The notes beneath the pieces were generated by a model, which ran no database searches, was not told the origin of the DNA, and saw only the letters and a list, made by a program, of their open reading frames with translations. Position numbers and translations under genes: made by a program. Shown here piece after piece: positions 4,198 through 24,423 of a stretch of 24,525 nt of DNA. Origin of the DNA: a virus. Numbering within the stretch: position 1 is the stretch's first letter; every line of letters begins with the position of its first letter. The stretch is taken from IMG/VR virus record IMGVR_UViG_3300032093_000800, positions 1 through 24,525 of that record. One strand, 5' to 3'.

Positions 4198-4201
4198 ACA
4201 T

Positions 4202-4669
4202 ATGGGCGGAACAATGGCGATCGCGCAGGGCATCATCGGGGCAAGCCAAGCCTCGGCTGCGAACGATGCTATCGGCAATGCGGTCAACAACCAGCGACGG
4301 GCGTTGATGATCCAGCAAGCCCAGTTGACGGCGCAGAACGCTCAACAGAAGCAGAACGAACTGGAATCCAGGCGGAGGGCATTAGGTCGGCTACGGGCGG
4401 CATCGGCGTTGGCCGGTCTGTCTGCGGCGGGCACGCCTGACGCGCTGGCCGGGGCGGAGGTTGCCGCTGCTGCGGCAGACCAGAACACCCTTAGTCAGAA
4501 CGTCCGCATGGCCCTCCAGTCGGCGGGTAGCCAGACGGCGGCGAACATCGACGGGCTGAACAGCCGTCGTCAGTCGGTATTCTTGTCTGCTTTCCAAGGT
4601 GCCATGAATGGCATGTCACAGGGGATGCAGATCAGTTCCGGCATCAACTCGGCTATGGGAGGCCCGTAA
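4202..4669 (+). CDS. internal virion / ejection protein (T7 gp14-like)
   Basis: The 155-residue product is rich in Ala, Gln and Asn. It begins with a small-residue helix (AIAQGIIGASQASAAN), continues as a long polar helix (QAQLTAQNAQQKQNELESRRRALGRL), and has an Ala-rich middle and a Met/Gly/Ser-rich end. That composition, the length and the position directly after tail tubular B match the T7 gp14 type, the smallest ejection protein, which is delivered into the outer membrane at infection. ATG 4202 was chosen because AGAGGTG lies seven bases upstream, at the end of the previous gene; ATG 4214 is an alternative. The stop overlaps the next start (TAATG). Catalytic motifs are neither seen nor expected. 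Confidence 0.75.
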   Translation: MGGTMAIAQGIIGASQASAANDAIGNAVNNQRRALMIQQAQLTAQNAQQKQNELESRRRALGRLRAASALAGLSAAGTPDALAGAEVAAAAADQNTLSQNVRMALQSAGSQTAANIDGLNSRRQSVFLSAFQGAMNGMSQGMQISSGINSAMGGP

Positions 4670-7011
4670 TGAGCAGCTTCGGCGGACGGTTCGGCGGCCT
4701 GACGCTGCCTCCCAACGCGATTGAGACTTCGGCCCCTGAGTCGGGGACGCGGCGGACGGGCGGAAGCCTGCCCACGCCGGACGGCCCTCGGGTCGGCCTG
4801 ACGGCTCCGGGCGTGACGGCGAGCAATGGGGACTTCTCGGCCGCCCAGCGGGCCGCAGACCTCGCGCAAGCCCTGTCAGGTCTGGCGGGTGCCGTGGGCA
4901 TGGCCGGTCAGGTGGCTGCCCAGGAGCGTGCCCAGACCGAAGCGGAGGCCCGCCGTACCGAGGCTGAGGATGACGCGGCCGAGGCGTTGATGCGAGCGCA
5001 GGGCGTGACCGCCGCCCAGAACGAACTTCCCCGGATCGCGGCGGACATTGCCGCTGGCCGGATCGCCCGTCAGGGCGAAGAGACTGACGAGCAGTTGATC
5101 GAGCGGGTGATGGCCGAACGCACCGCCAACATGAGTGAGGCGGAGGCGATTGGCTACCGGGCGCGGGCGACCCCCGTGCTGCTGGAGAACTCGATCCGCG
5201 CCACCGAAGAAGCGGCCAAGACCGCCAGCGTGGAGATTGGCCAGCAGATGAACGATCTGGCCATGAGCGGGGCAATGAGCAACGACCGTGGCCTGATTGA
5301 CATGGCTGTCAAGGGCTACATGGCGACGTTCCGCGTGTCGCAGGCTGAAGCCGAAAAGGAGGTGATCATTCCTGCCATGATGCGAGCGGCGGAACTCGGT
5401 CAGGAAAACGTGGTCCAAAATCTGACGGCGGTGATCGGGCCGGATCGGTTCATGGCGGAGCAGGCTTTGGTCAGGGCCAAACTGGACGACGTTGCTGCCC
5501 GAAGGGAGAACCAGCAGTCCACCCAGTTCCGCGAGGCGGTCGCTGGAATCCAGAATCAGTATTCCACAGGAGCGATATCGCTTGGAAGCGTTGTTGAGTT
5601 CTACAACGACGCTCGCCGGTCTGGCCAGAGCGAGATCGCCCTTCGCCCCATCGCGGAGCAGATCGAGCGCGGCATCGCCACTGAAACCCGCGACTTGGAA
5701 GATCGTGCTCAGCAATCCCAGTTGAACGCCGCCAAGGCGAACACCGAGTCGTTATTCGACACCCTTGTCAGCGGGACCGGATGGGCATCACTCCCGCCGA
5801 AGGTGCAGATGATGACGAGCAACGGCGAACCCGTGCTTGACAGCAACGGGCAACCTCGCATGGTTGACAGCAGCGAATACATCGCCGCCGCCGTGGACCG
5901 ACGCGGGCGTGCGATTCTCAGCGACCAGAGCGTCCCCCCGGCGGAGCGGGCGGTTCGGCTGAACACTTGGTTGTCTACGACCGGGCTCAGGTGGGATGGC
6001 CTTGCCAACTTGATCTCCGCTGGCGCAAACGCCCAGTTGGGAACGACCGACCAGCCCGGCAACCCCGAGTCTGCGAAGTCGTTTACGAACTCGTTCCGCA
6101 TCTTCAACTCGCTTGGCCCCGCCGTGCAGACGGCACACAGCAGCGAGCCTCAGCAGAAGTTGTTCCGGGCGGTTGCCGAACGGATCAACGCCTCCACGCC
6201 GATCACGCCCGCCGGGCTTGCCAATGTGCCCGATGACCAGGTGGTTGCCGCTTGGCGTCAGGTGGCCGAGGCGAAGGCCCGTGGCGTGGACTTCAACCTC
6301 AAGCCTGAGAAGCTGGACAATGCCGTCCGGGAACTGACCAACACCAGTTGGGCACTGGCCTTCTGGAAGCCCGACGACGCCAACCAGACGGACTATGTTC
6401 GTTCGGCACTGTCGCGCGAGTTCAACGCCAAGCGTCTCGGCTTCGACAACGACGAATCGGCGTTAGCCGCTGCCGTCAAGACGATGCAGGAGAACTACCG
6501 GCTGGTCGGACCCGACCTTGCCCTGGTCAATGACCCGCGAATCAAGGGCGGTGCAGACGCGAAGGCTGCTTTGTTCAATCGCGTCGGCACGTCGATGGCC
6601 AAGCAGTTCCTCAAGGACAACCCGCCATTCTCTCGCAGCAACGGCGGACTTACCCACAAGGACTTCTATCTCACCCCGGTTGGCGATGGGAACATCACCG
6701 ACCAGTGGCAGTTGGTGTACCGCACCGACGAGAACCAGTTTGGCACGACCGGCCGGATGGTCACGATTGGCGACTTGAACGCCCTGCTGGGCGGCCAGAG
6801 TGCCGACCGTTACGTTGCGTTGCAGGACGCCAAGGAAGCCGAGCGCGAGCGTCGGGTGTATCAGGCCGCCCTTCGCGGGCCGACCCCGGCCGAACTGTCT
6901 CAGAAAATTGTCGACGCCCGCAATCGTGCGGAAGAAGCACGACGCGACTCCCTCCGTCCGCGACCGGCCGATGAGCCGTACATCCGCGCCCTCAACCGAC
7001 CGCAACCATGA
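4669..7011 (+). CDS. internal virion / ejection protein (T7 gp15-like)
   Basis: The 780-residue protein is close to T7 gp15 (747). After a Gly/Pro-rich start it has a long charged coiled coil at about residues 65-125 (QEERAQTEAEAR-type heptads) and then mainly helical sequence to the end. In T7 this protein is part of the core stack and crosses into the cell as part of the ejection channel. Placement between the gp14-like and gp16-like genes is the main support. It starts on the TAATG overlap and ends on an ATGA overlap with the next gene. No lytic or nuclease motif is visible. Confidence 0.75.
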   Translation: MSSFGGRFGGLTLPPNAIETSAPESGTRRTGGSLPTPDGPRVGLTAPGVTASNGDFSAAQRAADLAQALSGLAGAVGMAGQVAAQERAQTEAEARRTEAEDDAAEALMRAQGVTAAQNELPRIAADIAAGRIARQGEETDEQLIERVMAERTANMSEAEAIGYRARATPVLLENSIRATEEAAKTASVEIGQQMNDLAMSGAMSNDRGLIDMAVKGYMATFRVSQAEAEKEVIIPAMMRAAELGQENVVQNLTAVIGPDRFMAEQALVRAKLDDVAARRENQQSTQFREAVAGIQNQYSTGAISLGSVVEFYNDARRSGQSEIALRPIAEQIERGIATETRDLEDRAQQSQLNAAKANTESLFDTLVSGTGWASLPPKVQMMTSNGEPVLDSNGQPRMVDSSEYIAAAVDRRGRAILSDQSVPPAERAVRLNTWLSTTGLRWDGLANLISAGANAQLGTTDQPGNPESAKSFTNSFRIFNSLGPAVQTAHSSEPQQKLFRAVAERINASTPITPAGLANVPDDQVVAAWRQVAEAKARGVDFNLKPEKLDNAVRELTNTSWALAFWKPDDANQTDYVRSALSREFNAKRLGFDNDESALAAAVKTMQENYRLVGPDLALVNDPRIKGGADAKAALFNRVGTSMAKQFLKDNPPFSRSNGGLTHKDFYLTPVGDGNITDQWQLVYRTDENQFGTTGRMVTIGDLNALLGGQSADRYVALQDAKEAERERRVYQAALRGPTPAELSQKIVDARNRAEEARRDSLRPRPADEPYIRALNRPQP

Positions 7012-10000
7012 GCGACCCGTTTCTCCCCCGCACCCGCATCGCCCCTCAGTTCGGCGGCCCAGGAGCGGCGACGGTCATCCCGGAAGAGACTCCCGAAACC
7101 AGCATCTTCAACTTCCGCATCTCGGATTGGTGGCAGACCACCAGTGCGAACGCGGCGTCGAGCATGTTGAGCCGGATGTTCGTCGAGGACGACAACCAGC
7201 CGGTGCCGTGGAAGACCGACGAGGAATTCTTCAAGTACGCAGAGGGTGTTCCGCCGGAGGCGTTTGAATCGCTCCGGCAGGCCCCCAGCAAGCGAGAGGC
7301 TGACTACTGGCGGAACGAGTTCATCCAAACGCGCGAATCCAAAGAGCGGATGATGTCCGCTGGCTTCGCCGGTGAGATGCTGAACTCCGGCCTGTCATTC
7401 ATCGACCCTGTGAACGTCGTGGCATTGGCGGTCCCGCTTGGCCGAGCCGCGACGGCCATGCGTTCCCTGACGCGAGCGGGCCGCCTTTCGCTGTTGCTGC
7501 GGGAAGGTGCCATTGGTGGCACCGTGAACCTTGCTGCCGAATCGCTCCGGGCTGCCTACGACCCGACGCTTGACAACTCGGCCCTGGCCACCGCCTTCGC
7601 CTCCGGTGCGGCGGCGGGTATCACCGGGCCGCTCGGCCAGAACCTATCCCGTGGCGGTCGCTTCGCCCTGACCGGCGGTGGTCAGTTCGCCGCCGTGGGT
7701 GGTGTGGGTGTCGCCTCCGGGCAAAGCGTGGGTGACGCTGCCTCCGCCGCTGCGATGGCGATGATCGTCGGCGGTTCGCTGGCGGCCTTGCCCCCGACCG
7801 TGCGGTCGCAGATCGAGGCGCGTCTGAGCGAGGTTCCGCTGGTCGTGGCGGGTGACGATGCCCGTGCGGCTGGCTTGCCGCTCACGCCCGAGGGTGAGCA
7901 GCGGACGACGTTCAAGCCGGGGAAGGTGGAGCAGTTCGACAACTTTGTCGAGGCCCGTCTGTCCCGCGTGGCCAACGCGGTGCTGGACACCAACGAGACG
8001 CAGACGTTCACGCTTGGCCCCGACCTGAGCCGCGTGGTCGTCAACCGCGTCCGGCGGGCGTTCCCGAACACCGAGCGGCAGGTCGCTGGCTTGGCCGAGA
8101 TCGACATTCCGAACGCGACCATGCGTGCTGGCAAGGACGCCCTGCTGTCTGGAACTTTTCCGCTTGGCGATCTTCGGTACGTGCCCGAGGACTTCCAAGT
8201 CCGTGTCGGCGAGGACAACGGGAAGGTGGTGATCGAGTTCGGTGATCGGTGGGCGAACAGCACCCCCGAGAAGCGTGCCGAAGAGATCGACCTGCTGTAC
8301 GGCCGGACGGCGGCTGCCGACCTGATTCTCAAGCGTGCGGCCGAAGGGGCGACCGAAGTGTCCGCCCGCGACCTGTACCTCGGCATGGGCCTGAACAGCA
8401 TCTTTGATGCTCGCACGGTCCTGACCAACCTGATCCGGTCGGTTGACGAAAACATCCTGATCCGCAACGTGCTGGATGACACTCCGGGCAACGTGCTGAT
8501 CGACCCGGCGGACATGAACATCCCCCCCGCCCTCGACCCGACCCAGCCCACCCTCTTCGACGCCTACTCCGACAGCACGCCTCCGCCTCCGCCCGCCAAC
8601 GACGGACCCGCCGTGGCCGTGGGTGCCACCACGCCCGGCCAGACGATCTCCACCGTGGACCGCGCGGTCGAACCGGGCGACTTCGTGGCGACGGAGATGC
8701 GGGCGGCTGCCCCTGCCCGTCCCCTGAACGCACCCCGCTGGGACTTTGCGTATCAGGTCGGCACTTCGCTGGTGGACGACGTGCGGGAACTCGGCACGAT
8801 GCTGTTCTCCGACTCGCTTGTTCGAGCGGACGGCACGGTGAATATGTCCTCCGCTGCGGATTCGTGGGTCCGCCAGAACGTCCAGAAGCGGGAGATCGCG
8901 CACGCCCGGTCGATGGATGAGGCGTTCAACGATTGGAGCCAGCAGCAGGCGGCGACCGGCCGTGGCCGCGTGGACCTGATGTTCCGGGGCCGCCGCGAGT
9001 TCAACCAAGAGGTTGCCAAGGCCGCCCGTCGTCAGCCCGGCCAGTACACCCAGAACCCGGCGATCAACAAGGCCGCCGATGCGGTTCGGCGTGAACTGAG
9101 CGAACTTCTCAACCTCCAGCAGCGGCACCTTGTCGCGGGCATGGAGAGTGTCAACCCCAACGACAACTACGTCCATCGCGTGTACAACCTCACGCGGACG
9201 ATGGAAGCGATCAACCGGCACGGGATGGACAACGTGGTCCAGTTGTTCCGGCAGGCGATGGAGCGGCACATGGCCGCGAACCGCCTCAAGCCCAACGCCT
9301 TCCCGCCCATCGATCCGAAGATTCTGGATGCGGCGGCGGCGGGCATGGTCGAGCGGATGGTCGCTGGCAAACTCGGGTTCGAGTCTGTCGGCGGCGTGGT
9401 GCAGATGCCGTCCGACATGAGCGGCGTGCTGGCCCAGATTCTCCGGTCCAAGGGAGTGCCAGAGGACACGATCACCGCGACGTTGGCTCGGATGGTGGAC
9501 CAGGAATCCGAGGCTGGCCGGATCGACTCGGCCCGGTCCCGTGTGGCTCTGGACGAGACGACCGAGATCGTGACCCCCGCCGGTCGGCTGTCCATCGAGG
9601 ACATTCTGGAGAACGACGTTGACGTGCTGATGACGGTCTACCGCCGGAAGGCGATTGGCGCATCGGCCACGTCTGAAATCTTCCGTTCGTTCCGGGCGAA
9701 GGGGTATGCCGAGGTCAACACCTTCGACGGGTTGCTCGGTCGTATCCGGTCGGAAGCCCAGAAGAAGGCGTTGCAGCCCGGCGCGGACATGCTGGCCATC
9801 TCCCGCGACCTTGAGGCGAACATCGACCGCCTGACTGTCGGCTATCGCCACGTCATGGGCGAGGTGCTGTTCCCGCCTTCGACCAAGTTGCGGGGCCGCG
9901 TGGATGACGTTCTGGCCCTTGCCCGGCAGGCGTCCTACGGCGTGGTGATGAACGTGAACGGGTTCGCCCAGATCGCGGACACCTTCAAGTTCCTAGCCCC

Positions 10001-11141
10001 CGAGAACGCCAAGGCTCTCCGCAAGCAGGTGCCCCAGTTGGACAGCCTTCTGTCAATGGCCCGCGCTGGCAAGTTGCCGTCCGAGACTGTGCGGGAACTG
10101 GAGTACCACTTCGGCGTGGGTGCCGAGGCTGTGTCCGAGCGGATGATCAACCGCTTCGATGACGATGCCGCCAGCAACCAGTTGGCTGGTGGCCGCGTCG
10201 AGACAGCCATGCGGAACATCGGGCGTGTGACTTCGTGGATTGGATTCTCCCGCCCGATCAACCTGTTCAACCAGCGAATGGCCGCCCTGACCGCCATGCA
10301 GCGGATCGGGGATGCGATCCTTGACGGAAAGACTCCGACCGCCATCTTCGAGCGGATGGGGTTGGGCGACAAGGCCGACCGCGTGGCCGATCAGATTCGC
10401 ACGCACGGCAAGCTCAAGTCCAACAACGCCATCGAGCATCTGGGTCTGGACAAGTGGGACGACTACGAGGCGTATGCCGCGTTCCAGTCCGCGTTCGACC
10501 GGATGCGGCGCGAGGTCAACCAAGAGAACGACTTCGGCAACAGCACGCTCTGGATGCAGACGCCTATCGGCAAGACGATCATGCAGTTCCGCACGTTCGC
10601 CAACGTCGCGTACCAGAAGGCCACACTCCGGGGTGCCCAGCGGTTTATGAACGGCGAAGGCTGGGAGCAGGCGGGCACGATGCTGGTGAACTCCATCGGT
10701 GGTCTGCTCGGCTACGTCGCCCTCACTTACGTGAACTCCCTTGGCCGTGAGGACCGGGATGAGTTCTTGCAGGATCGTCTGTCCGCCAAGTCCCTTGCCA
10801 CGGCCATGTTCGCCCGCTCGCAGTGGTCGAGCCTGTTCCCGCTGGCGGCGGACACCGTTGGCTTCCACGTCTGGGGCCAGCAGCCGTTCGCACCCGCCCG
10901 CAACAGCGGCTTGCAGGGACACATCCTGTTCGGCAACCCGACCCTCTCGCTTGTGACCGGCGCGTCCAACGCCGTTCGCGGTGCGGTCGCCCCCAGCCTC
11001 AGCCCGGAGTATTCGTTCAGCCGCGAGGACTTGCAGGCGATCCGCAGCGTGACCCCCTTCCAGAACGCGGTGGGCCTGTCCTACTTCTGGAACACGCTCC
11101 GCGAGGACTTGCCCGCCCGGAGTCTGGAGCCCCAGCGGTGA
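7008..11141 (+). CDS. large internal virion protein (T7 gp16-like)
   Basis: At 1377 residues this is the largest gene and close to T7 gp16 (1318). The N-terminal region contains several hydrophobic Ala/Gly/Val stretches (about residues 125-145 and 205-270), which suits a protein that inserts into a membrane to form the ejection channel. A proline run (STPPPPPAND, about 525) looks like a flexible linker. The C-terminal third includes a recognisable structural-protein pattern with WMQTPIGKTIMQFRTF and the following VAYQK. In T7 the N-terminus of gp16 is a lytic transglycosylase; I see no catalytic Glu-Ser signature of that family here, so wall cleavage may be absent or done by another fold. It starts at ATGA overlap 7008 and its TGA is embedded in the GTG of the next gene. 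Confidence 0.82.
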   Translation: MSDPFLPRTRIAPQFGGPGAATVIPEETPETSIFNFRISDWWQTTSANAASSMLSRMFVEDDNQPVPWKTDEEFFKYAEGVPPEAFESLRQAPSKREADYWRNEFIQTRESKERMMSAGFAGEMLNSGLSFIDPVNVVALAVPLGRAATAMRSLTRAGRLSLLLREGAIGGTVNLAAESLRAAYDPTLDNSALATAFASGAAAGITGPLGQNLSRGGRFALTGGGQFAAVGGVGVASGQSVGDAASAAAMAMIVGGSLAALPPTVRSQIEARLSEVPLVVAGDDARAAGLPLTPEGEQRTTFKPGKVEQFDNFVEARLSRVANAVLDTNETQTFTLGPDLSRVVVNRVRRAFPNTERQVAGLAEIDIPNATMRAGKDALLSGTFPLGDLRYVPEDFQVRVGEDNGKVVIEFGDRWANSTPEKRAEEIDLLYGRTAAADLILKRAAEGATEVSARDLYLGMGLNSIFDARTVLTNLIRSVDENILIRNVLDDTPGNVLIDPADMNIPPALDPTQPTLFDAYSDSTPPPPPANDGPAVAVGATTPGQTISTVDRAVEPGDFVATEMRAAAPARPLNAPRWDFAYQVGTSLVDDVRELGTMLFSDSLVRADGTVNMSSAADSWVRQNVQKREIAHARSMDEAFNDWSQQQAATGRGRVDLMFRGRREFNQEVAKAARRQPGQYTQNPAINKAADAVRRELSELLNLQQRHLVAGMESVNPNDNYVHRVYNLTRTMEAINRHGMDNVVQLFRQAMERHMAANRLKPNAFPPIDPKILDAAAAGMVERMVAGKLGFESVGGVVQMPSDMSGVLAQILRSKGVPEDTITATLARMVDQESEAGRIDSARSRVALDETTEIVTPAGRLSIEDILENDVDVLMTVYRRKAIGASATSEIFRSFRAKGYAEVNTFDGLLGRIRSEAQKKALQPGADMLAISRDLEANIDRLTVGYRHVMGEVLFPPSTKLRGRVDDVLALARQASYGVVMNVNGFAQIADTFKFLAPENAKALRKQVPQLDSLLSMARAGKLPSETVRELEYHFGVGAEAVSERMINRFDDDAASNQLAGGRVETAMRNIGRVTSWIGFSRPINLFNQRMAALTAMQRIGDAILDGKTPTAIFERMGLGDKADRVADQIRTHGKLKSNNAIEHLGLDKWDDYEAYAAFQSAFDRMRREVNQENDFGNSTLWMQTPIGKTIMQFRTFANVAYQKATLRGAQRFMNGEGWEQAGTMLVNSIGGLLGYVALTYVNSLGREDRDEFLQDRLSAKSLATAMFARSQWSSLFPLAADTVGFHVWGQQPFAPARNSGLQGHILFGNPTLSLVTGASNAVRGAVAPSLSPEYSFSREDLQAIRSVTPFQNAVGLSYFWNTLREDLPARSLEPQR

Positions 11142-11404
11142 CACGCCTCCCCCGGCAGGCCAGCACCGACCCGCTGTTCGCGGCGTTCACTCAGGCGGTC
11201 GAGCGCAAACTGAACGAACTGACTGATCGCATAGCACGGCTTGAAGCAGCGATGCCAGTGAGCGGCGGCACGCTTCCCGACATTACTGGACCCAGCGTTT
11301 TGGGCCTCGAAAGCGGAACTGGGCAACCAACCTCGATCACGCTTGGCCCCGGGTTCTCCATCGTTGACGGAGAATTGAGATATGAAGCCCCAGTGACCCC
11401 ATGA
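11138..11404 (+). CDS. small fibre-tip-like protein in the T7 gene 17 position
   Basis: The start is GTG 11138, which overlaps the preceding stop (GTGA); a much longer open frame upstream is only a shadow of the large virion gene. The 88-residue product has a short coiled coil (FTQAVERKLNELTDRIARLEAA), then a Gly/Ser/Thr-rich beta segment (SVLGLESGTGQP, then GPGFSIVDGELRY). That layout resembles the last residues of trimeric phage tail fibres, where a coiled coil leads to a small beta tip. Its place between the gp16-like gene and terminase is that of the T7 fibre gene, yet it is far shorter than a full fibre. It may be a tail tip, an adaptor for a fibre encoded elsewhere, or a remnant. Confidence 0.6.
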   Translation: MTRLPRQASTDPLFAAFTQAVERKLNELTDRIARLEAAMPVSGGTLPDITGPSVLGLESGTGQPTSITLGPGFSIVDGELRYEAPVTP

Positions 11405-12192
11405 CAACCCCACTTCGCTGGCTCATCGTCTCTGACCTTCACGCCGGTTCGGTCGTCTCTCCAGTCCCCAAGGGCTTCGAGACTTCCGAGGGCGTGCGGG
11501 TGTCACCCAACCGCGTGCAATCGTGGATGAACGCCCAATGGGCTGACATGCTCAAGTGGGCGAAGTCCCTTGGCCCGTTCGGCATCATCCTCAACGGCGA
11601 CCTCATCGAGGGGTACCACCACCGCACGACGCAGGTGTGGTCGGTCGAAACCTCCGACCACATCCGCGCCGCCGTGCAGATGCTTCAACCCCTGTGCGAG
11701 TACGCCCAGACGGTGTACGTCGTCGAGGGGACGGAGTGTCACACCGGCAAGTCTGAACTCGGCATCGGAGCCATGCTCGGTGCCGACATCCCCCCGCCGG
11801 GCGGGTGGGGATCGTCCGCCTCGCGGATGCTTCTCGACATCCACGGCGACCGGGTTGTCGTCACGCACCACATGCCAACGTCGAAGCGACCGTGGACCCG
11901 CGCGTCCGCCTTGGGGCTGGAACTGATCGACCACGTTGTCAACGCCGCCGACGCTGGCGAGAAGTCCCCCCGCGTGGTGTGCATGGGGCACCGCCACACG
12001 CCCGGCTTCTACTCGGACGGCGACCGCCTCGCCGTTGTCACGCCCGCATGGCAGGGGCTGACAAGGTACGGCCACAAGGTCGTCCCCGCCGCCCGACTCG
12101 TTGTCGGCGCGATGCTGCTCGATTGGACACACGCAACGAAGGGCCAGTGCCCGGGGGTGACACCGTGGCTCCGTCGTCCCCCGGCTGGTTGA
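11401..12192 (+). CDS. calcineurin-like metallophosphoesterase
   Basis: This 263-residue protein carries the ordered metal-binding motifs of the family: D-x-H (SDLHAG, Asp12 and His14), G-D (LNGDLIEG, Asp67), a variant of the GNH(D/E) motif (GTECH, residues 100-104), His156-His157 (VVVTHHMP) and G-H-x-H (CMGHRHTPG, 196-199). The Asn of GNH is replaced, with Glu-Cys-His instead, which may alter activity. Members hydrolyse phosphomono- or diesters, including DNA ends and cyclic nucleotides; the substrate cannot be told here. The ATG overlaps the upstream stop (ATGA), so it is expressed with virion genes, and could be packaged or act late in DNA processing before the terminase. Confidence 0.82.
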   Translation: MTTPLRWLIVSDLHAGSVVSPVPKGFETSEGVRVSPNRVQSWMNAQWADMLKWAKSLGPFGIILNGDLIEGYHHRTTQVWSVETSDHIRAAVQMLQPLCEYAQTVYVVEGTECHTGKSELGIGAMLGADIPPPGGWGSSASRMLLDIHGDRVVVTHHMPTSKRPWTRASALGLELIDHVVNAADAGEKSPRVVCMGHRHTPGFYSDGDRLAVVTPAWQGLTRYGHKVVPAARLVVGAMLLDWTHATKGQCPGVTPWLRRPPAG

Positions 12193-12216
12193 TCCTCCCA
12201 CCTTGGATATTTCCTG

Positions 12217-12510
12217 ATGGCTACGACCCGGACGAAGACCTTGAAGTCGAACGGCCCGACCGAATCCGAACTCATCGAAGAGGCGATCCGGCTGGGCAAG
12301 ACCGCCCGCAACATCGGGGAGGAGGTGACGAACCTTCTCCGGCACGGCAAGCCCGTGAGCGTCATTGAAGTGGCCCGCCAGTTGGGCCAGAACAAACGCA
12401 CCGTGGCCCTCTCATGCGAACCGCTGATCGACTGCGGTGTACTTGAGTGTGGCTTTGTGAAGTTGAATGGCCGCCGGTGCAAGTGGGTTCGACTGGCGAA
12501 GCACGGCTAG
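12217..12510 (+). CDS. winged-helix DNA-binding protein
   Basis: The 97-residue product has a helical N-terminal half, then a helix-turn-helix-like stretch SVIEVARQLGQNKRTVALSC (about 50-69), then DCGVLECGFVKLNGRRCKWV, which reads as recognition helix end plus beta wing. It is basic overall. It sits 24 bases after the phosphoesterase and before a strong terminator, ahead of the small terminase. It could be a late regulator, or bind packaging sites. I see no convincing Shine-Dalgarno sequence before ATG 12217. The fold call is pattern-based. Confidence 0.6.
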   Translation: MATTRTKTLKSNGPTESELIEEAIRLGKTARNIGEEVTNLLRHGKPVSVIEVARQLGQNKRTVALSCEPLIDCGVLECGFVKLNGRRCKWVRLAKHG

Positions 12511-12557
12511 AATGTACCGCCGAAAGGCGCACCCTGATCGGGCAACCGAACGCGCTG

Positions 12558-12615
12558 CCGCCCCGTTCCACCATGAGTCCTTCGGGACTTGTGGTGGCGG
12601 GGCGGTGGTGTTTTT
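12558..12615 (+). terminator. long hairpin with UUCG loop and T tract before small terminase
   Basis: A 21-pair stem (12558-12605) closes on the tetraloop TTCG (12581-12584) flanked by C and G, the very stable C(UUCG)G form. From the base: CCGCCCCG pairs with CGGGGCGG, then a TT bulge, CCACCA pairs with TGGTGG, then two G-T pairs and AGTCC pairs with GGACT. Five T (12611-12615) follow after a short spacer, and the next gene's GGAG (12616-12619) comes immediately. It could be a factor-independent terminator, partial attenuator or RNase processing site between the winged-helix gene and terminase. Confidence 0.65.
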
Positions 12616-12625
12616 GGAGTTCACC

Positions 12626-12964
12626 ATGTCACCATCTGATGTTCAGAAGGCTATCGCCGAGGCGACCGACCGCACCCTCGCCGAATGGCTCGAAGTCGGC
12701 GTGCAGCGAACCGGCCCGGACGGGATGCCGCTTGTCGATGACGACGGCCAGCCCCTCATGCGGAAGGTCAACGCCTCCGAGATGAACGCGATCCTCAAGC
12801 GGCTCGCCCAGTTGGGCCTTACCGCGTCCGCGTCCTCCGCACCGGCCAGCCCCGCCGGACAACTCATCGCCGCCATGCAGGCCGCCACCGGCCAGCCTGT
12901 CGTCCCCATCAAGCCCCTCTCACTCGTCACCCCAGCCGAAGACCTCGACGACGAAGCCGCATGA
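12626..12964 (+). CDS. small terminase subunit (T7 gp18-like DNA maturase A)
   Basis: The 112-residue protein has the recognisable short motif VNASEMNAILKRLAQLGL (about 49-66), comparable to the V-(T/S)-A-S-(D/E)-L-N segment of podovirus small terminases, followed by a Pro/Ala-rich linker and a C-terminal acidic end (EDLDDEAA). It should recognise phage DNA and hand it to the large terminase. The start ATG 12626 has GGAG seven bases upstream. Its stop overlaps the large terminase start (ATGA). Small terminases vary greatly, so the call rests on this motif plus position. Confidence 0.78.
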   Translation: MSPSDVQKAIAEATDRTLAEWLEVGVQRTGPDGMPLVDDDGQPLMRKVNASEMNAILKRLAQLGLTASASSAPASPAGQLIAAMQAATGQPVVPIKPLSLVTPAEDLDDEAA

Positions 12965-14793
12965 CCACCATCATCGACCGGGCAGCCCAAGCCGAGTTCT
13001 TCGCTCGGCTCCACAACGAACTGCCCTTCTTCCTCAACGCGATCTGGACCGACCGCGGGCTCGACAAACACCATCCCCTCTCCGAGATCGAACACGACAT
13101 GGTCCTCTACGGGGCCGGTCTGCTCATCCCCTCCCGTCGCCGGGGCATCCTCGCCCCCCGTGGTGCGGGCAAGACCCACCTCGTCACCGCCGTCCTCTCC
13201 GCCTTCCGGCTCCGCCGCGACCCCGACCGCAAGATTCTGATCCCCTCCAAGTCCGAAGGTGAGGCCAAGAAGACCCTCGCCCTCATCCGCGAGTGGCTGG
13301 ACGCGGTGTGGTTCCTGCAAGACCTGGCCCCGCGCAAGTCTCAACGGGACGCCGCCACCTACTTCGACGTGGGAACGTGCAAGCCCGCCCGGCAGGAGTC
13401 CGTCAAGGCGATGGGCATCGGCGGCCAGCTTGAAGGCAACCGCGCCCACAGCATCTTCCCGGACGACGTGGAAACCAAGTCCAACACCAAGACCGTCGAA
13501 GCACGCGAAGAACTCGCCCGCCTCACCCGCGAGTTCAAGAACATCCTCTACCCGCACCGTGCCCACGCGACCGGCGGACCCATCGACCCCGTCGAGATCG
13601 TCTACGTCGGCACCGTCAAGCACGAAGAATCCATCTACCCGAAGCTCGAACGACGCGGATACCGCTTCCGCACCTACCCCATCGCCATCCCCGAAACCGA
13701 CCAAGAGTTCATCGGCCTCTCCCCTATCGTCGAAGCCCGGATGCTCCAAGGGGTCCGCGACGGTGCAACCGCTCCCGCCAACTGCCGAGCCAACGCGCCC
13801 GTCTTCCCCGCCCGCTTTCCCGAGGAGGAAATCCTCGAACGGCGTGCCGAAGGCGAAACCGACTTCTTGATGGAGTCCATGTGCGTCGTCAACCTCGCCT
13901 CCAAGCGACGGTACCCGCTCCGCCTCGCCGACCTGATCGTCTGGGCCATGCCCCCCACCCAAGGGCCAACCAGCATCTCCTGGGGCCACCGTGACCCCAC
14001 CAACCAATCCACCGCCCTCACCGACCTCGAATCCCTTGGGTTCGGCACCGACCGCTGCTACGGACCCATCGCCTTCTCCCCCACCTTCACCCCCTACGCC
14101 CGCACCATCGCATTCCTGGACCCCGCAGGCACCGGCACCGACGAGATGGCACTCGCCCTCGCCTCATCCCTCAACGGTGCCATCTTCGTTCACACCGTCC
14201 TCGGCCTCCCCGGTGGCATGTCCCAACTCAACCTCGACACCATCGCCTCCACCCTCCGGTCCTACAACGCACGCGAACTCCACTACGAAACCAACATCGA
14301 CGCCTTCGGTGTCCTCCGCTCCGCCCTGGAAGCCGCTGTCGCCCGTCACAAGATCGAACCCGCCAACACCCCCAATGACCCCTTCGCCGGGCTCGGTTGG
14401 TCCGCAGCCGTCATCCCCGCCCGTGCCACCGGCCAGAAGGAAGCCCGCATCCTCCGCGTCCTCGAACCCCTCTTTGCCCACCACCGACTCGTCATCCACC
14501 CCGACGCCCTCCGACCCCACCCCACCCGCCCCCGCGATTACGAACTCCAACACCAACTCGCCGCCCTCACCCACCAACGCGGCTGCCTCAACCACGATGA
14601 CCGCATCGACGCCCTCGCCGGTGTCACCGCCCGCCTCACCGACCTCGCCCTCTCCACCCCAGACCCCGACGCCCTCGAACGCGCCCGCCTCGCCAAACTC
14701 GCCGCTGTCGTCTTCACCGAAGACCATCAACAACACCAACCCGCGCCCCGCTGGTCCACCTCCTCCCGCTACAACCCGCCCGCTTACCGATGA
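12961..14793 (+). CDS. large terminase subunit (T7 gp19-like DNA maturase B)
   Basis: The 610-residue ATPase-nuclease drives packaging. Walker A is APRGAGKTH (residues 65-73, Lys71), Walker B is HSIFPDDVE (Asp168, Asp169, catalytic Glu171). The nuclease domain shows an acidic metal ligand in FLDPAGTGTDEMA (Asp387) and a second cluster in HDDRIDALAG (Asp546, Asp547, Asp550). Length is close to T7 gp19 (586). Codons in the 3' half end overwhelmingly in C (ctc, gcc, acc, ccc), unlike the G-ending codons in tail genes, so base composition or strand skew changes along this gene. It is the last gene before a long gene-free stretch, as in T7, where the genome terminus follows. Confidence 0.93.
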   Translation: MTTIIDRAAQAEFFARLHNELPFFLNAIWTDRGLDKHHPLSEIEHDMVLYGAGLLIPSRRRGILAPRGAGKTHLVTAVLSAFRLRRDPDRKILIPSKSEGEAKKTLALIREWLDAVWFLQDLAPRKSQRDAATYFDVGTCKPARQESVKAMGIGGQLEGNRAHSIFPDDVETKSNTKTVEAREELARLTREFKNILYPHRAHATGGPIDPVEIVYVGTVKHEESIYPKLERRGYRFRTYPIAIPETDQEFIGLSPIVEARMLQGVRDGATAPANCRANAPVFPARFPEEEILERRAEGETDFLMESMCVVNLASKRRYPLRLADLIVWAMPPTQGPTSISWGHRDPTNQSTALTDLESLGFGTDRCYGPIAFSPTFTPYARTIAFLDPAGTGTDEMALALASSLNGAIFVHTVLGLPGGMSQLNLDTIASTLRSYNARELHYETNIDAFGVLRSALEAAVARHKIEPANTPNDPFAGLGWSAAVIPARATGQKEARILRVLEPLFAHHRLVIHPDALRPHPTRPRDYELQHQLAALTHQRGCLNHDDRIDALAGVTARLTDLALSTPDPDALERARLAKLAAVVFTEDHQQHQPAPRWSTSSRYNPPAYR

Positions 14794-15007
14794 ACCCCTT
14801 GTCGTTCAAGTAGTAATTTTGTGAGGGGGTCAATCGATACATCAACAGCGGGCCGTTCCCCCCCTCGGGGGGCCTCGCACGCACGCGGAGGATGATCGCG
14901 CACGCATGCACGCGGAGGAAGAACACGCGCGCACGTGTAAGGAACTACGTCATCGGCTACCGTATCCGATGCTAACCCTCGCAACCATCGACACTTACGC
15001 TTGGTTG

Positions 15008-15026
15008 TTGGGCATGGCTTGGGCAA
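15008..15026 (-). promoter_or_regulatory. paired TTGCCCAA box (minus strand)
   Basis: On the minus strand this reads TTGCCCAA, three bases, then ATGCCCAA: two direct repeats 11 bases apart. The same arrangement flanks the attP core at 19763 and 20000. The spacing of one helical turn suggests two subunits of the same protein bound on one face. Its presence 4.7 kb from attP makes a purely integrase-arm role less certain. Confidence 0.45.
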
Positions 15027-15523
15027 CCCGGCATCACTGCACGTTGCTATTCGTACACATACGCGCGCGTGTACGTGTACTGGATGACTCCACCCGGTTC
15101 GTGCGGTCGGTTGCGGGAGGGCCGATCACCGACCCTCAACACCTACACACCCACACCACACGAGCGAACCGAAGCGGTAGACGCCGCGCCGATTGATCGT
15201 ATCGGCTCGCTGGTGTCGATCAGCACGATGGGCGGCTCACCGCCCCAACCGACGATCCGCGACGATCCTGGGCGGTTGTAGGGCGGTTGCGGGTCTACCT
15301 TTTTCGCGCGGTGTCGGGAGGATGACAACGACCAACGGACGCGGACCAACTCGAGCGGAGCGGGTCAAGCGGGTATTTTTGCGGGGGCTGTTCTGTTCGG
15401 GTACGTTCACGCGCTGCGGCAACCGATTGGGCTGTGCAACCTCGTCAACGTAAAAGCATGATTCTACCGGGGCAAATCAGCGATTTCAACCCGATACCTA
15501 CACTGACGGATCATACACGCGGC

Positions 15524-17801: not shown

Positions 17802-17882
17802 TCCACCGCCCGCCGTGCCCCACAAGGTACAGCGGGCTTTCGGGGGCCGAGCCCGGCGGGTCCGGGCGTGTGGAGTGTTGCT
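17802..17882 (+). promoter_or_regulatory. intergenic leader 5: CACAAGGTAC motif, hairpin, GTGGAG box
   Basis: CCCCACAAGGTACAGCGGG (17818 on) is followed by CGGGCT (17833-17838) pairing with AGCCCG (17850-17855), then GTGGAGTGTTG at 17870-17880 and ATG 17883. Confidence 0.6.
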
Positions 17883-18260
17883 ATGCAAATGTGGACTTTC
17901 ACCATCACCGACAACGGCCGCATCGTGGAGAATCTGGACGACGGCCCCTTTCCCACGCGGGAACTGGCCGAAGAGGCGGCACAGGATGCGATGGATTCGT
18001 GCTGCCCGCCGCTGGACCCGATGCGGAAGTTCTACCGCTACACGGTCCACCATGCCCCGATGTACGTGGTGAGCCCGGCCAACGCATCGGCCCTCTACTA
18101 CGCCCTGGATGACATGCTGCCGCTTGCCCTCGCCTACTTGCAGGAGCGTGCGGCCAAGATGACGGCGGAGGATGACGACGACGAGGACGGGCTCCCGGCG
18201 AAATGGGAACTGGCGCAGCGGTACCGGGCGGCCAAGGCCGCGCTCAAGGCTTGTCAGTGA
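17883..18260 (+). CDS. unknown 125-aa early protein
   Basis: ATG 17883 is seven bases after the GTGGAG box. The 125-residue product opens with a beta-rich stretch (MQMWTFTITDNGRIVENLDDG) in which a following helix (TRELAEEAAQDAMDSC) resembles small phage domains with W-x-V-x-D. It has an acidic patch (EDDDDEDG, ~100) and ends in a basic helix (RYRAAKAALKACQ). Four Cys or more suggest nothing clear. Family not recognised. Confidence 0.7.
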   Translation: MQMWTFTITDNGRIVENLDDGPFPTRELAEEAAQDAMDSCCPPLDPMRKFYRYTVHHAPMYVVSPANASALYYALDDMLPLALAYLQERAAKMTAEDDDDEDGLPAKWELAQRYRAAKAALKACQ

Positions 18261-18343
18261 CCATCCCCGCCCCTTGCCCCACAAGGCACGGCGGCGGATT
18301 CAAGGGGGCCGAGCGGCACGGGTTGCCGCGTGGAGTGTTGACC
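18261..18343 (+). promoter_or_regulatory. intergenic leader 6: CACAAGGCAC motif, hairpin, GTGGAG box
   Basis: CCCCACAAGGCACGGCGG (18277 on) also forms a small stem with upstream CCTTG. GCGGCA (18313-18318) pairs with TGCCGC (18324-18329), and GTGGAG begins at 18330, directly on the stem base, eight bases before GTG 18344. Confidence 0.6.
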
Positions 18344-18571
18344 GTGACCCGATTCAAGTGCTGCGGCGAGGTGTTCGAGGATGTCATCGTCTGGGCTGGT
18401 GGGGTGTGGCAACGCACCGACAACGGCCAGCGATACGCCAAGTGGCAGGATGCCGTTCGTGAATACTGCGAACAGTTCCTCCGCGAGTCTGGCGGAGAAC
18501 CCGACCACTACCGGCGTGCGATTGACAAGGCGGTCGATTCCTGGAACCCCAGCGTCGGCACCGAAGACTGA
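18344..18571 (+). CDS. unknown 75-aa early protein
   Basis: GTG 18344 follows the leader box. The 75-residue product begins MTRFKCCGEVFEDVIVWAGG and has a helix WQDAVREYCEQFLRES followed by a polar end. Two adjacent Cys near the start and one in the helix do not form a zinc motif. It is the last of the six GTGGAG-box genes; the next gene, integrase, uses a different leader. No family recognised. Confidence 0.65.
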   Translation: MTRFKCCGEVFEDVIVWAGGVWQRTDNGQRYAKWQDAVREYCEQFLRESGGEPDHYRRAIDKAVDSWNPSVGTED

Positions 18572-18615: not shown

Positions 18616-19791
18616 ATGTATACCACTGTTCGACTCGAATCGTGCGGCGCGTACTGGCGTGCCGCTTGGGCTGTCGGTCCCTACGCCCGAAAGCGCGTGC
18701 TGCTGGGGCCGAAGTCCGAAATGTCACGCACCGCCGCTCTCCGCGAGTGCCGACAACTCGCCGTCCGCATGGGCCTGGGTGAGAAGCCCGGCCACAAGGC
18801 ACCGGGGCTGCGCGAGTGGTGCGATCATGTCATCGAGGGGAAGACCGACGCGCGAGAATCGACGATCACCGATCTGAAGTTCTCCGCCGTGCTGCTCGCT
18901 CAGGTCATCGGGGCCGACACCCGCATCGACCAAGTGACGACCGATCACGCCCGCCAGTTCCGCACCGCGCTGGAGGGGAGGACGTTCAAGCGATCCAAGC
19001 GGAAGGGAGCGGCCGAGTTCAAACTGGCAACCAACACCATCCGCAAGCACATGCGAAACGCCCGCGCGATCTTCGCGGCGGCAATGGAAGTGGACCACAT
19101 CCGCGCCAACCCCTTCCGGCTGGAGTCTACCGCTGTCGTGGATGTCGGCCAGCACTGGCGGATGATCGACGAGCCAACGCTCCGCCGCATGGCGGACGCG
19201 GCACCGCACGCCGGAGCCCGCGCCCTGCTGGCACTGTGCCGCTGGGCTGGACTCCGCCTCAACGAGGCGATCCGCCTCCGCTGGCAGCACGTTGACCTGG
19301 CGGCCGGGGTTCTCCGCATCCACCCACCCGCTAACAACCGGGGGGAGGCGGCCCCGACGACCAAGCACCGCTACCGCGAAGTCCCCATCGAGCCCCGCCT
19401 CCGGGCTGCACTCGATGAGGCGTTCGATACCGCCCCACAAGGCACGGCGAGCGTGTGCCGGGTGGGCTCCAGCGTCTCCGCCCAAGCCCTCATGCGGGCG
19501 ATCCTCCGCATCTCGGGGGTGCCGCCCTACCCCCAAGCGTTTCACGCCCTTCGGAAGTCGCGCGAGTCTGAATGGATGGCCGAGTACCCCGTGCTGACGG
19601 TCGCGGCGTGGATGGGGCACGACCCGGCCGTCGCCCAGAAGCACTACGTCAAGCCCCTGGCCGAACAGGTCGCGGCGGTGGTCACGCCACAAGGCACGAC
19701 GGTCGATGAGGTCGCGGCCCTCAAGGAACAGGTCGCCCAACTCACCTCAATGTTGGCGAAACTTGCCCAACATTTGCCCACACCGGCCTGA
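18616..19791 (+). CDS. int: phage tyrosine recombinase (integrase)
   Basis: This 391-residue integrase has the full catalytic set: Arg204 (AGLRLNEAIRLRW), Lys240 (TTKHRYREVP), His300 and Arg303 (FHALRKS), His325 (AAWMGHDP) and the nucleophile Tyr334 (QKHYVKP). The N-terminal ~60 residues form the arm-binding-like part, residues ~65-170 the core-binding helical domain. An extra C-terminal Leu-rich coiled coil follows the catalytic Tyr (VDEVAALKEQVAQLTSMLAKL). A terminator and the attP tRNA fragment lie immediately downstream, as usual for tRNA-targeting phages. Three CACAAGGCAC motifs lie inside the gene (18793, 19436, 19688) and one paired TTGCCCAA box inside its last codons. Confidence 0.95.
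   Translation: MYTTVRLESCGAYWRAAWAVGPYARKRVLLGPKSEMSRTAALRECRQLAVRMGLGEKPGHKAPGLREWCDHVIEGKTDARESTITDLKFSAVLLAQVIGADTRIDQVTTDHARQFRTALEGRTFKRSKRKGAAEFKLATNTIRKHMRNARAIFAAAMEVDHIRANPFRLESTAVVDVGQHWRMIDEPTLRRMADAAPHAGARALLALCRWAGLRLNEAIRLRWQHVDLAAGVLRIHPPANNRGEAAPTTKHRYREVPIEPRLRAALDEAFDTAPQGTASVCRVGSSVSAQALMRAILRISGVPPYPQAFHALRKSRESEWMAEYPVLTVAAWMGHDPAVAQKHYVKPLAEQVAAVVTPQGTTVDEVAALKEQVAQLTSMLAKLAQHLPTPA
19763..19780 (+). promoter_or_regulatory. candidate left arm-type sites of attP
   Basis: TTGCCCAA-CAT-TTGCCCA: two direct repeats 11 bases apart at the 3' end of the integrase gene, 72 bases before the tRNA fragment. An identical arrangement lies on the other side at 20000. Paired direct repeats flanking the core are typical of lambda-type integrase arm sites. 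Confidence 0.6.
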
Positions 19792-19814
19792 GTATTCACT
19801 CGCCCCGGAAGCAG

Positions 19815-19848
19815 AAACGCCCCTGGCATCGTGCCAGAGGCGTTTTTT
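19815..19848 (+). terminator. factor-independent terminator after integrase
   Basis: AAACGCC (19815-19821) pairs with GGCGTTT (19839-19845), and CTGGC (19823-19827) with GCCAG (19833-19837), with one C-A mismatch and a five-base loop; six T (19843-19848) follow. It closes the early/integration transcript 24 bases after the integrase stop. Confidence 0.88.
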
Positions 19849-19851
19849 ATA

Positions 19852-19893
<42 letters not shown>

Positions 19894-19999
19894 GTCGATG
19901 GTCCACCCCCTACTGCGCCCCACTATCCCGGTCACAAGGCACAGGACGCGGTTCAGGGGTACACCCGGCGACGGTCAGATACCCACAAATGCACCCACG

Positions 20000-20020
20000 T
20001 TGCCCAATTTTTGCCCAAAA
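20000..20020 (+). promoter_or_regulatory. candidate right arm-type sites of attP
   Basis: TTGCCCAA-TTT-TTGCCCAAAA, 107 bases beyond the tRNA fragment, with the same 11-base repeat distance and orientation as the pair at 19763. Confidence 0.6.
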
Positions 20021-20067
20021 ACCATCGGGGTGACTACCTGTTGTCACCTCTGATTGGGGGATTGTAC

Positions 20068-20095
20068 TTGAGGTTATACTCGTGCGTGGTATCCT
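20068..20095 (+). promoter_or_regulatory. promoter candidate before the 20124 gene
   Basis: TTGAGG (20068-20073), 16 bases, TATCCT (20090-20095); an alternative -10, TATACT (20075-20080), overlaps the spacer. It stands about 30 bases before ATG 20124. Confidence 0.4.
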
Positions 20096-20123
20096 GCTAG
20101 GCAACTGATAGGAGGGTCCGGGC

Positions 20124-20402
20124 ATGGGTTGCATTTTCGGAAGCGTGGGTGATTCGGTTCGGGGATTCATCACCACGACGGGCCGGTTCATTCCCGACGA
20201 GGGACAGATCATCGAGGTCTACGCCGACGTGGCCGTTATCGAACACGTCTCTGGGCAGCAACGTCGGCTGCCTTGGTCGCGGGTGATGGTGGCGGTGGTG
20301 GGGTGGGGTCAGCCATCGCCTGGACTGCTTGCACGAGGTCGGGCAGGAACTCCCGCACGAACTCGGGCTTGTCGCCGTGGAGCAAAGCGAACTTCGCCTT
20401 GA
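20124..20402 (+). CDS. unknown small protein, convergent overlap with next gene
   Basis: A strong ribosome site (AGGAGGG, 20110-20116) stands seven bases before ATG 20124. The first ~60 residues look like a real compact beta domain (FITTTGRFIPDEGQIIEVYA, then VAVIEHVSGQQRRLPW); the last ~30 are Arg/Ala/Gly-rich and resemble antisense sequence of the minus-strand gene it overlaps by 167 bases. Either the two are read alternately or the true end has drifted into the neighbour. Function unknown. It is the first gene right of attP, so it would sit at a prophage end after integration. Confidence 0.5.
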   Translation: MGCIFGSVGDSVRGFITTTGRFIPDEGQIIEVYADVAVIEHVSGQQRRLPWSRVMVAVVGWGQPSPGLLARGRAGTPARTRACRRGAKRTSP

Positions 20403-20532
20403 AGGGCAGGCGAGCCCACCACAACAGCACGCCCTCGGCCGCGTCGAGCTGGGTCAAGCCCATCGCATCGACCGCTTTTGTCCACTCCTCGAACGATGGC
20501 TGGCTGATATTGACTGCGCGGTACTTCTTCAT
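20236..20532 (-). CDS. ribbon-helix-helix-like regulator, only minus-strand gene
   Basis: The start was set at the ATG complementary to 20530-20532 because GGAG lies seven bases upstream; a longer frame begins at 20592 without support. Of 98 residues, the N-terminal YRAVNISQPSFEEW, then AVDAMGLTQLDAAEGVLLWW resembles a strand-helix-helix DNA-binding domain and aligns by eye with the diverging 20655 product (I-S-x-P/Q, then L-T-x-L-x-A). The C-terminus is Pro-rich then basic. Its opposite direction to all other genes and its place beside int and the xis-like gene suit a lysogeny repressor. The fold call is moderate. Confidence 0.6.
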   Translation of the reverse strand: MKKYRAVNISQPSFEEWTKAVDAMGLTQLDAAEGVLLWWARLPFKAKFALLHGDKPEFVREFLPDLVQAVQAMADPTPPPPPSPATKAADVAAQRRVR

Positions 20533-20619
20533 GGTAGTCTCCGGTTGGTGATCATTGTTCCCCAGTAGAGGTAACGGCGGCTGATCTGTCACGAAAAGCG
20601 AAAAATCTCACCATACCTA

Positions 20620-20651
20620 TTGACGGCCAGTAAGTCTCCCTGTAGACTTAC
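20620..20651 (+). promoter_or_regulatory. promoter with operator-like palindrome; predicted leaderless start
   Basis: TTGACG (20620-20625), 17 bases, TAGACT (20643-20648). A perfect inverted repeat GTAAGTCT / AGACTTAC (20630-20637, 20644-20651; six-base spacer) covers the spacer end and -10, so a bound protein would block transcription. The expected RNA start, about seven bases after the -10, coincides with ATG 20655, so the transcript may lack a leader. Confidence 0.62.
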
Positions 20652-20654
20652 GCC

Positions 20655-20849
20655 ATGCCCGAGAGTTCCACTACCACCCAGCAGTACACCCGCACGATCA
20701 GCGTCCCGGCGGCCGACTACGCGCGGCTGTCCGAGATCGCCCACAAGTTCCGTCTCACCAAGCTCGCCGCGTTCACGTTGGCGATGGACGTGATGCAGAA
20801 GGTCGATGACCAGGTGGTCTTCAACGCGCTCACCCGCGACCCCAAGTAG
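20655..20849 (+). CDS. ribbon-helix-helix-like regulator (Cro/Arc type)
   Basis: The 64-residue product reads as strand (YTRTISVPAAD), helix (YARLSEIAHKFR), helix (LTKLAAFTLAMDVMQ), the layout of CopG/Arc-type dimers that bind DNA through the strand; T/R residues in the strand fit base contacts. There is no Shine-Dalgarno before ATG 20655; the promoter geometry predicts RNA start at or beside the ATG. A palindrome over the -10 is the likely operator, perhaps autoregulatory. It diverges from the 20236-20532 gene with about 120 bases between starts, as in a two-regulator switch. Confidence 0.65.
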   Translation: MPESSTTTQQYTRTISVPAADYARLSEIAHKFRLTKLAAFTLAMDVMQKVDDQVVFNALTRDPK

Positions 20850-20863
20850 CACCCTTCCCCCTG

Positions 20864-20894
20864 CGGGCTGGTCAGGCCAACGCCGACCGGCCCG
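20864..20894 (+). promoter_or_regulatory. hairpin abutting the excisionase-like start codon
   Basis: CGGGCTGGTC (20864-20873) pairs with GACCGGCCCG (20885-20894) with one T-G pair; A20874 is bulged; the apex is GGC-CAAC-GCC (20875-20884). ATG 20898 follows after TTT with no ribosome site. Same architecture and apex as the hairpin before integrase, with different stem bases. Confidence 0.65.
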
Positions 20895-20897
20895 TTT

Positions 20898-21161
20898 ATG
20901 CGAGACAACGCAACGAAGGAACCGAAGGCCGCTGGCCCCACGGTTGTCCCCTTGTCGGCACCCAAGTTCGAGGCCAAGCCCGTCTACACCACCCACGAAC
21001 TGCGAGCGATGTTCGGCGTGAGCGAACGCACGCTCCAGCACTACCGCTCATCTGGCAAACTCAGAGCAATCAGGCTGGGCCGCGAAGTGCGGTACCTGCA
21101 TGACGACGTGGTGGCTTTTCTTGCCGCCCAACGTGAGGCATCAAACAGGAGTTACGCATGA
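20898..21161 (+). CDS. excisionase-type helix-turn-helix protein
   Basis: Residues ~29-80 of 87 match the MerR/excisionase-like HTH: YTTHELRAMFGVSERTLQHY (HTH) and then GKLRAIRLGREVRYLHDDVV, where the RxGR-x-(V/W)-R(Y/F) wing and the closing V-x-F-L helix are typical. Such proteins act as Xis or as small regulators. The shared hairpin leader with integrase links the two and favours an excisionase role. The stop overlaps the next start (ATGA). An N-terminal ~28-residue extension is disordered-looking. Confidence 0.78.
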   Translation: MRDNATKEPKAAGPTVVPLSAPKFEAKPVYTTHELRAMFGVSERTLQHYRSSGKLRAIRLGREVRYLHDDVVAFLAAQREASNRSYA

Positions 21162-24345: not shown

Positions 24346-24423
24346 GCCCGGTCGGCGTGGCGGCGTACACGCGGTCCGTCCTGTGGACTCAAGACCTCGC
24401 CGGTTCGACTCCGGCACCGGGCA
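24346..24423 (+). tRNA. tRNA-like sequence, possible Arg (CCT) or degenerate
   Basis: GCCCGGT / ACCGGGC form the 7-pair acceptor, GCGT/ACGC the D stem with a GG-containing loop, and GCCGG-TTCGACT-CCGGC the T arm; discriminator A. A possible anticodon stem GGTCC / GGACT (one G-T) closes loop GTCCTGT with T33 and anticodon CCT. Against a working tRNA: position 8 is C rather than T, position 37 is G, and nine bases remain as variable loop. Total 78 bases, normal tRNA length. Confidence 0.35.

Follow-up and report, generated by a model that had tools for sequence, protein, structure and literature searches.

A divergent pair of small genes, found in a phage genome fragment with T7-like virion genes, is best explained as a lysis-lysogeny (immunity) switch, with a leftward repressor, a rightward early regulator and a palindrome serving as operator, a reading to which we assign a probability of roughly 0.55. 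The DNA analyzed (the window, meaning this whole stretch of 24,525 nucleotides) is a linear 24.5-kb virus record from IMG/VR (IMGVR_UViG_3300032093_000800), and is itself a fragment. The gene order runs from a tyrosine integrase gene, through a terminator-like hairpin and a candidate attachment site (attP), to the divergent pair, an excisionase-like HTH_17 gene and the Sak4/SSB genes, and these surroundings, together with the T7-like virion genes, support a lysogeny switch. Our best reading is that such a switch would be arranged like P22 immI or lambda cI/cro and would replace the usual MarR module, the fold of its proteins being unproven.

Genomic setting and candidate attachment site

To the left of the divergent pair lie T7-like virion and packaging genes, which include terL (phrog_38, E 1.6e-68; product 33–34% identical to TerL of T7-like phages) and the genes for tail tubular protein B (phrog_457, E 7.6e-99) and an internal virion protein (phrog_342, E 2.4e-108), followed by the integrase gene, the hairpin and half of a tRNA-Asp. 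To the right of the HTH_17 gene there are a Sak4-like gene and an SSB-like gene. The features next to the pair are:

18616-19791, plus strand: tyrosine integrase gene (phrog_1, E 7.9e-31; PF00589, E 9.4e-9)
19815-19845, plus strand: intrinsic-terminator-like hairpin after the integrase gene, AAACGCCCCTGGCA / TGCCAGAGGCGTTT, with a T-rich 3' side
19852-19919, minus strand: attP candidate, a tRNA-Asp(GTC) 3' half with a degenerate 5' half (Rfam tRNA, 20.9 bits; gathering score 29)
20898-21161, plus strand: HTH_17 or excisionase-like gene that follows the plus gene in its operon (PF12728, E 2e-11; phrog_66 excisionase, E 5.6e-10)

Both an integrase and a tRNA attP are thus present, as is characteristic of temperate (integrating) phages. 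The 35-nt 3' half of the tRNA-Asp was found in 22 IMG/VR contigs. Several of these have it inside a tRNA-like sequence that is complete, others have the half only, and this pattern marks an attachment site. Contigs in which the half (window 19852-19890) stands without a tRNA-like 5' half include L087, L090, L091, L093 and L107 (among L087-L108), and the distribution looks as if the same half were the attachment site for further phages too. The tRNA-Asp core was matched, at up to 3 mismatches, in 0 of 398 Pseudomonadota genomes, making a host from that group unlikely. The integrase gene and the excisionase-like gene (together spanning 18616-21161) flank the tRNA-Asp attP on opposite sides, so that after integration each would sit at a different end of the prophage. 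Relatives of the integrase were found neither in the IMG/VR scan nor among phages, and the IMG/VR scan returned none for the HTH_17 gene; the 5.9-kb region searched at the DNA level had no match among phage records.

Two further genes of the window were recorded in passing. A phage-borne tRNA-Arg (anticodon CCT; 24346-24423, plus strand) sits at its end, and a 97-aa winged-helix-like protein with a weak match to PF25212 (E 0.0012) is encoded at 12217-12510 (plus strand), between an exonuclease-like gene and terL; possible roles are those of a regulator or of the small subunit of the terminase.

The divergent genes, their promoters and the palindrome

The pair and its control elements, together with a small ORF that converges on it, comprise the following:

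20068-20095, plus strand: candidate promoter of the 20124 ORF, TTGAGG-16-TATCCT, with TG before the -10 (8/12 consensus match)
20124-20402, plus strand: small ORF convergent with the minus gene, with an AGGAGG Shine-Dalgarno (SD) sequence
20239-20532, minus strand: minus regulator candidate, 98 aa, ATG start at 20532, SD-like GGAG upstream, stop codon at 20236-20238
20610-20638, minus strand: possible but weak minus-gene promoter, read from the sequence, -10 TATGGT (20615-20610), -35 GAGACT (20638-20633)
20620-20648, plus strand: plus-operon promoter of sigma-70 type, TTGACG-17-TAGACT, with +1 predicted at 20655
20630-20651, no strand: perfect palindrome and proposed operator, GTAAGTCT-N6-AGACTTAC, with arms of 8+8 bp
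20655-20849, plus strand: plus regulator candidate, 64 aa, no SD sequence, predicted leaderless start, weakly ribbon-helix-helix (RHH)-like at residues 14-30

The two divergent genes, which the initial annotation had placed with starts at 20532 and 20655, are separated by 122 bp and are confirmed by coding signal, since, in codon log-odds scoring with the window's large genes as training set, each did best in its own frame (plus 0.44, minus 0.15, the remaining frames lower). The signal is clear for the plus ORF and less so for the minus ORF, in which it amounts to 0.29 over the N-terminal half and to about 0 over the C-terminal half; GC3 values of the two ORFs are 0.94 and 0.77. At 20068-20402 on the plus strand, an ORF with a strong SD sequence and an extended -10-like promoter runs toward the 3' end of the minus ORF, and because coding signal in this 20124 ORF is confined to its first ~112 nt, it may act as antisense transcription into the minus gene, or may end in such transcription.

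Between 18500 and 22000 the rightward promoter alone matches the sigma-70 consensus (0.5 ± 0.6 matches expected), and its -10 (20643-20648) is overlapped by the palindrome, just as had been claimed. The predicted RNA start, 7 nt past the -10, coincides with the A of the plus ATG at 20655, so that the claimed start at the ATG also holds as a sequence prediction. A repeat with 8-bp arms would arise by chance with a probability of 0.016 in the shuffled 122-bp intergenic stretch and of 0.003 in the 36-bp promoter stretch, and no second copy with up to 3 mismatches occurs elsewhere in the window. An apparent enrichment of the half-site (14 against 5.1 expected) was discarded, as 200 of 1680 permuted 8-mers were equally frequent. 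No consensus promoter was found for the minus gene, its TATGGT/GAGACT candidate falling under the 8/12 threshold of the scan; GAGACT, the candidate leftward -35, falls within the left arm of the palindrome, and if this weak candidate is real, both promoters would lie under one operator.

Read as an immunity switch, the leftward gene would most likely encode the repressor that silences the prophage. The rightward gene would be the first of an early lytic operon that continues with the excisionase-like gene, the Sak4-like recombinase and SSB, and its product would most likely be a small Cro- or Arc-like regulator. A dimer or pair of dimers bound at the palindrome, the putative operator, would block the rightward promoter, and occupancy may also act on the leftward promoter, the weak candidate -35 of which this palindrome contains. 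The rightward mRNA probably begins at its AUG, for which there is a precedent in phage PY54, whose cI and cro mRNAs are leaderless and were mapped experimentally (PMC4488713). Of all this, the ORFs, gene order, promoter match and palindrome, as well as the integrase gene, the attP-like half of a tRNA-Asp and the excisionase-like gene, are observed, and the fold, the leaderless start, the identity of the binding protein and the sense of regulation are inferred.

Relatedness and fold of the two products

The initial annotation had described the two products as paralogues alignable by eye, and this did not hold up. BLASTP of the two products returned no alignment, and their best local alignment was equalled by 58–59% of shuffles with BLOSUM matrices (p about 0.58, i.e. 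similarity at shuffle level) and by 8% with PAM250, while the positive control, the Arc/Mnt pair of P22, scored 115, a value reached by 0 of 2000 shuffles. One ungapped register selected by eye does give a shuffle fraction of 0.004, but its selection was made once the sequences had been seen.

With regard to an RHH fold, no match to PF01402 (RHH_1) or PF03869 (Arc) was found in the window. A profile was built from 30 PF01402 matches in genomes. The plus product scored 3.0 bits on it in the correct strand-helix register, a score equalled by 8 of 1000 shuffles and by 21 of 1902 background ORFs (~1% of controls); Arc and Mnt scored 4.4 and 2.8 bits on the same profile, control scores low enough to make this a weak test. 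On that same weak test the minus product reached -0.4 bits, out of register and outside its N-terminal region. A top-scoring background ORF, that at 12217-12510, was set aside, as its match is confined to 15 positions near helix two and its product looks more like a winged helix. AlphaFold2 models from single sequences were uninformative, consisting of one long helix for the plus product and having low confidence (pLDDT 63) for the minus product, and with models this poor Foldseek gave no RHH match for either product and no significant PDB match for the minus product. Neither product belongs to a recognized family in Pfam, PHROGs or NCBIfam, and no relatives of either were found in IMG/VR (peptide-pattern scans), in PDB sequences, or in phages and plasmids (tblastn, E<=1). 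The sole genome_contigs match to a product of the pair (L003) was discarded as out of frame inside an ABC-transporter gene.

Of the proposed RHH-like products, then, the plus product is weakly supported as compatible with the fold by its profile score, and neither the profile nor Pfam lends any support to that fold in the minus product. The Arc/Mnt-like lysis-lysogeny switch put forward initially survives as a switch layout, through the integrase and attP, the excisionase-like gene, the palindrome and the P22 precedent, and loses the paralogy and the RHH fold of the minus product. No toxin family was detected beside the plus gene in Pfam, PHROGs and NCBIfam scans of neighboring genes, the next gene being HTH_17/excisionase-like, and the pair, lacking an adjacent toxin, does not have the composition of a type II toxin-antitoxin locus (RHH antitoxin plus toxin).

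Regulators in T7-like relatives

T7-like phages were long regarded as strictly lytic, and the initial annotation had called repressors rarely described among them, a statement that needs qualifying. A tyrosine integrase occurs in 16 of the 30 T7-like IMG/VR relatives searched (which include L151-L166), and in 12 of these 16 a MarR-like gene (phrog_9665) lies directly upstream of it; for the integrase of L162 and L163 no neighbor of this kind was found. The downstream neighbor of the integrase gene was a T7-like RNA polymerase (RNAP) gene in all six relatives tested (hmmscan). Phage LUZ100 has the same arrangement of MarR-like regulator, integrase and RNAP, and its MarR-like regulator has been hypothesized to control lysogeny (PMC10134795); the integrating T7-like phages described to date are presumed to rely on a regulator of this MarR-like type. 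In T7-like cyanophages, integration is described with no repressor known (PMC8776855).

TerL relatives in IMG/VR are 29–35% identical, with the exception of contig L002 (IMGVR_UViG_3300005527_002555), which shares 12,146 nt (window 2961-15106) with complete identity and ends ~310 nt past terL. A search of the window for phrog_9665 gave nothing at E<=10; the two ORFs before the integrase gene (17868-18260 and 18203-18571) have no Pfam match, and the latter also no PHROG match. No PF00940 match indicative of a phage RNA polymerase was found in the incomplete window, in a search without its own positive control. The window being a fragment, comparison with the relatives that carry the MarR-integrase-RNAP module is limited.

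Alternative explanations

The original proposal, in which both products are Arc/Mnt-type RHH paralogues competing for a single palindrome, now appears improbable. The same layout does occur with true RHH paralogues in P22 immI, the plus product has a score similar to those of Arc and Mnt on the RHH_1 profile, with its strand and helix in register, and one by-eye register beats almost all shuffles, but unbiased alignments leave the pair at shuffle level, whereas Arc and Mnt are plainly alike, the minus product falls at the wrong place on the profile, and neither Pfam nor Foldseek, the latter with poor models, returned an RHH match. We also consider it unlikely, if less so, that the plus protein is an autoregulated regulator of an early or excision operon (HTH_17 being the excisionase), with a minus gene unrelated to immunity (e.g. 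a moron or host-takeover gene) and the immunity repressor encoded beyond the fragment. Because the window is a linear fragment, another repressor, e.g. a MarR-like one beside a phage RNA polymerase gene, may indeed lie outside it; the minus product has no recognized DNA-binding domain and its gene a weak coding signal in the C-terminal half, and T7-like relatives keep their MarR-like regulator by the integrase and RNAP genes, of which the fragment yielded no RNAP gene in the search lacking its own control. However, a lone leftward gene opposite an early operon, sharing its operator region, is in the standard position of a phage repressor, and the MarR-like gene of the relatives is directly upstream of the integrase, where the ORFs of the window are without a Pfam match.

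A tandem of two elements at one tRNA-Asp gene, with T7-like virion genes and the integrase on the left and the regulators and replication genes of another phage on the right, would also account for a tRNA 3' half present alone, since such a half fits the junction of two integrated elements as well. It would agree with the relatives, in which the integrase gene adjoins that of the phage RNAP rather than lying downstream of terL, and with contig L002, whose identity stops at 15106, short of the junction. Nevertheless, both sides are phage-like, the sole integrase seen adjoins the site, and a single circularized phage genome is the simpler account of the gene order, so that we regard the tandem as very improbable.

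Returning to the immunity switch as the preferred reading, we tentatively raise a broader scenario, which may well prove wrong, that a temperate lineage with T7-like virion genes has swapped MarR-integrase-RNAP control for a divergent two-regulator switch, made up of small DNA-binding proteins without detectable relatives, one shared operator and a leaderless early transcript, with integrase and excisionase split by attP to opposite prophage ends. If true, T7-like phages can bear a classical two-gene immunity module, i.e. a divergent repressor and early regulator with a single operator, and the switch is testable on a 150-bp promoter fragment.

Comparison with known switches

P22 immI (NC_002371) resembles the locus in having its mnt (minus) and arc (plus) genes divergent and separated by little DNA (90 bp, against 122 bp in the window), in having operators between the genes, including one that covers the rightward promoter, where the window has the palindrome as a putative operator, and in having the plus gene first in its operon. 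It differs in that P22 has two separate operators and the window one palindrome, Arc and Mnt are plain paralogues while the present pair is without detectable paralogy, and arc, which is not leaderless, has ant as its next gene, where an excisionase-like gene follows here. P22 immI is also located away from int/attP, which in the window adjoin the regulator pair.

The LUZ100-type module shares with the window the combination of a tyrosine integrase with T7-like virion genes, and a presumed small DNA-binding regulator of lysogeny. It is set apart by phrog_9665, which has no match in the window, by the RNAP gene, which was not seen beside the integrase gene here, and by gene order, as in the window the integrase gene comes after terL, with attP between it and the regulators. 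Lambda-like cI/cro loci, and especially immB of the telomere phage PY54, likewise have divergent genes for a repressor and an early regulator with a promoter operator, and PY54 has an mRNA start at the AUG, mapped there and predicted here (PMC4488713); the difference is that neither product of the window matches a known HTH family. Overall, we rate the system as working like the known divergent phage switches and as differing from the MarR-integrase-RNAP module that is usual in integrating T7-like phages.
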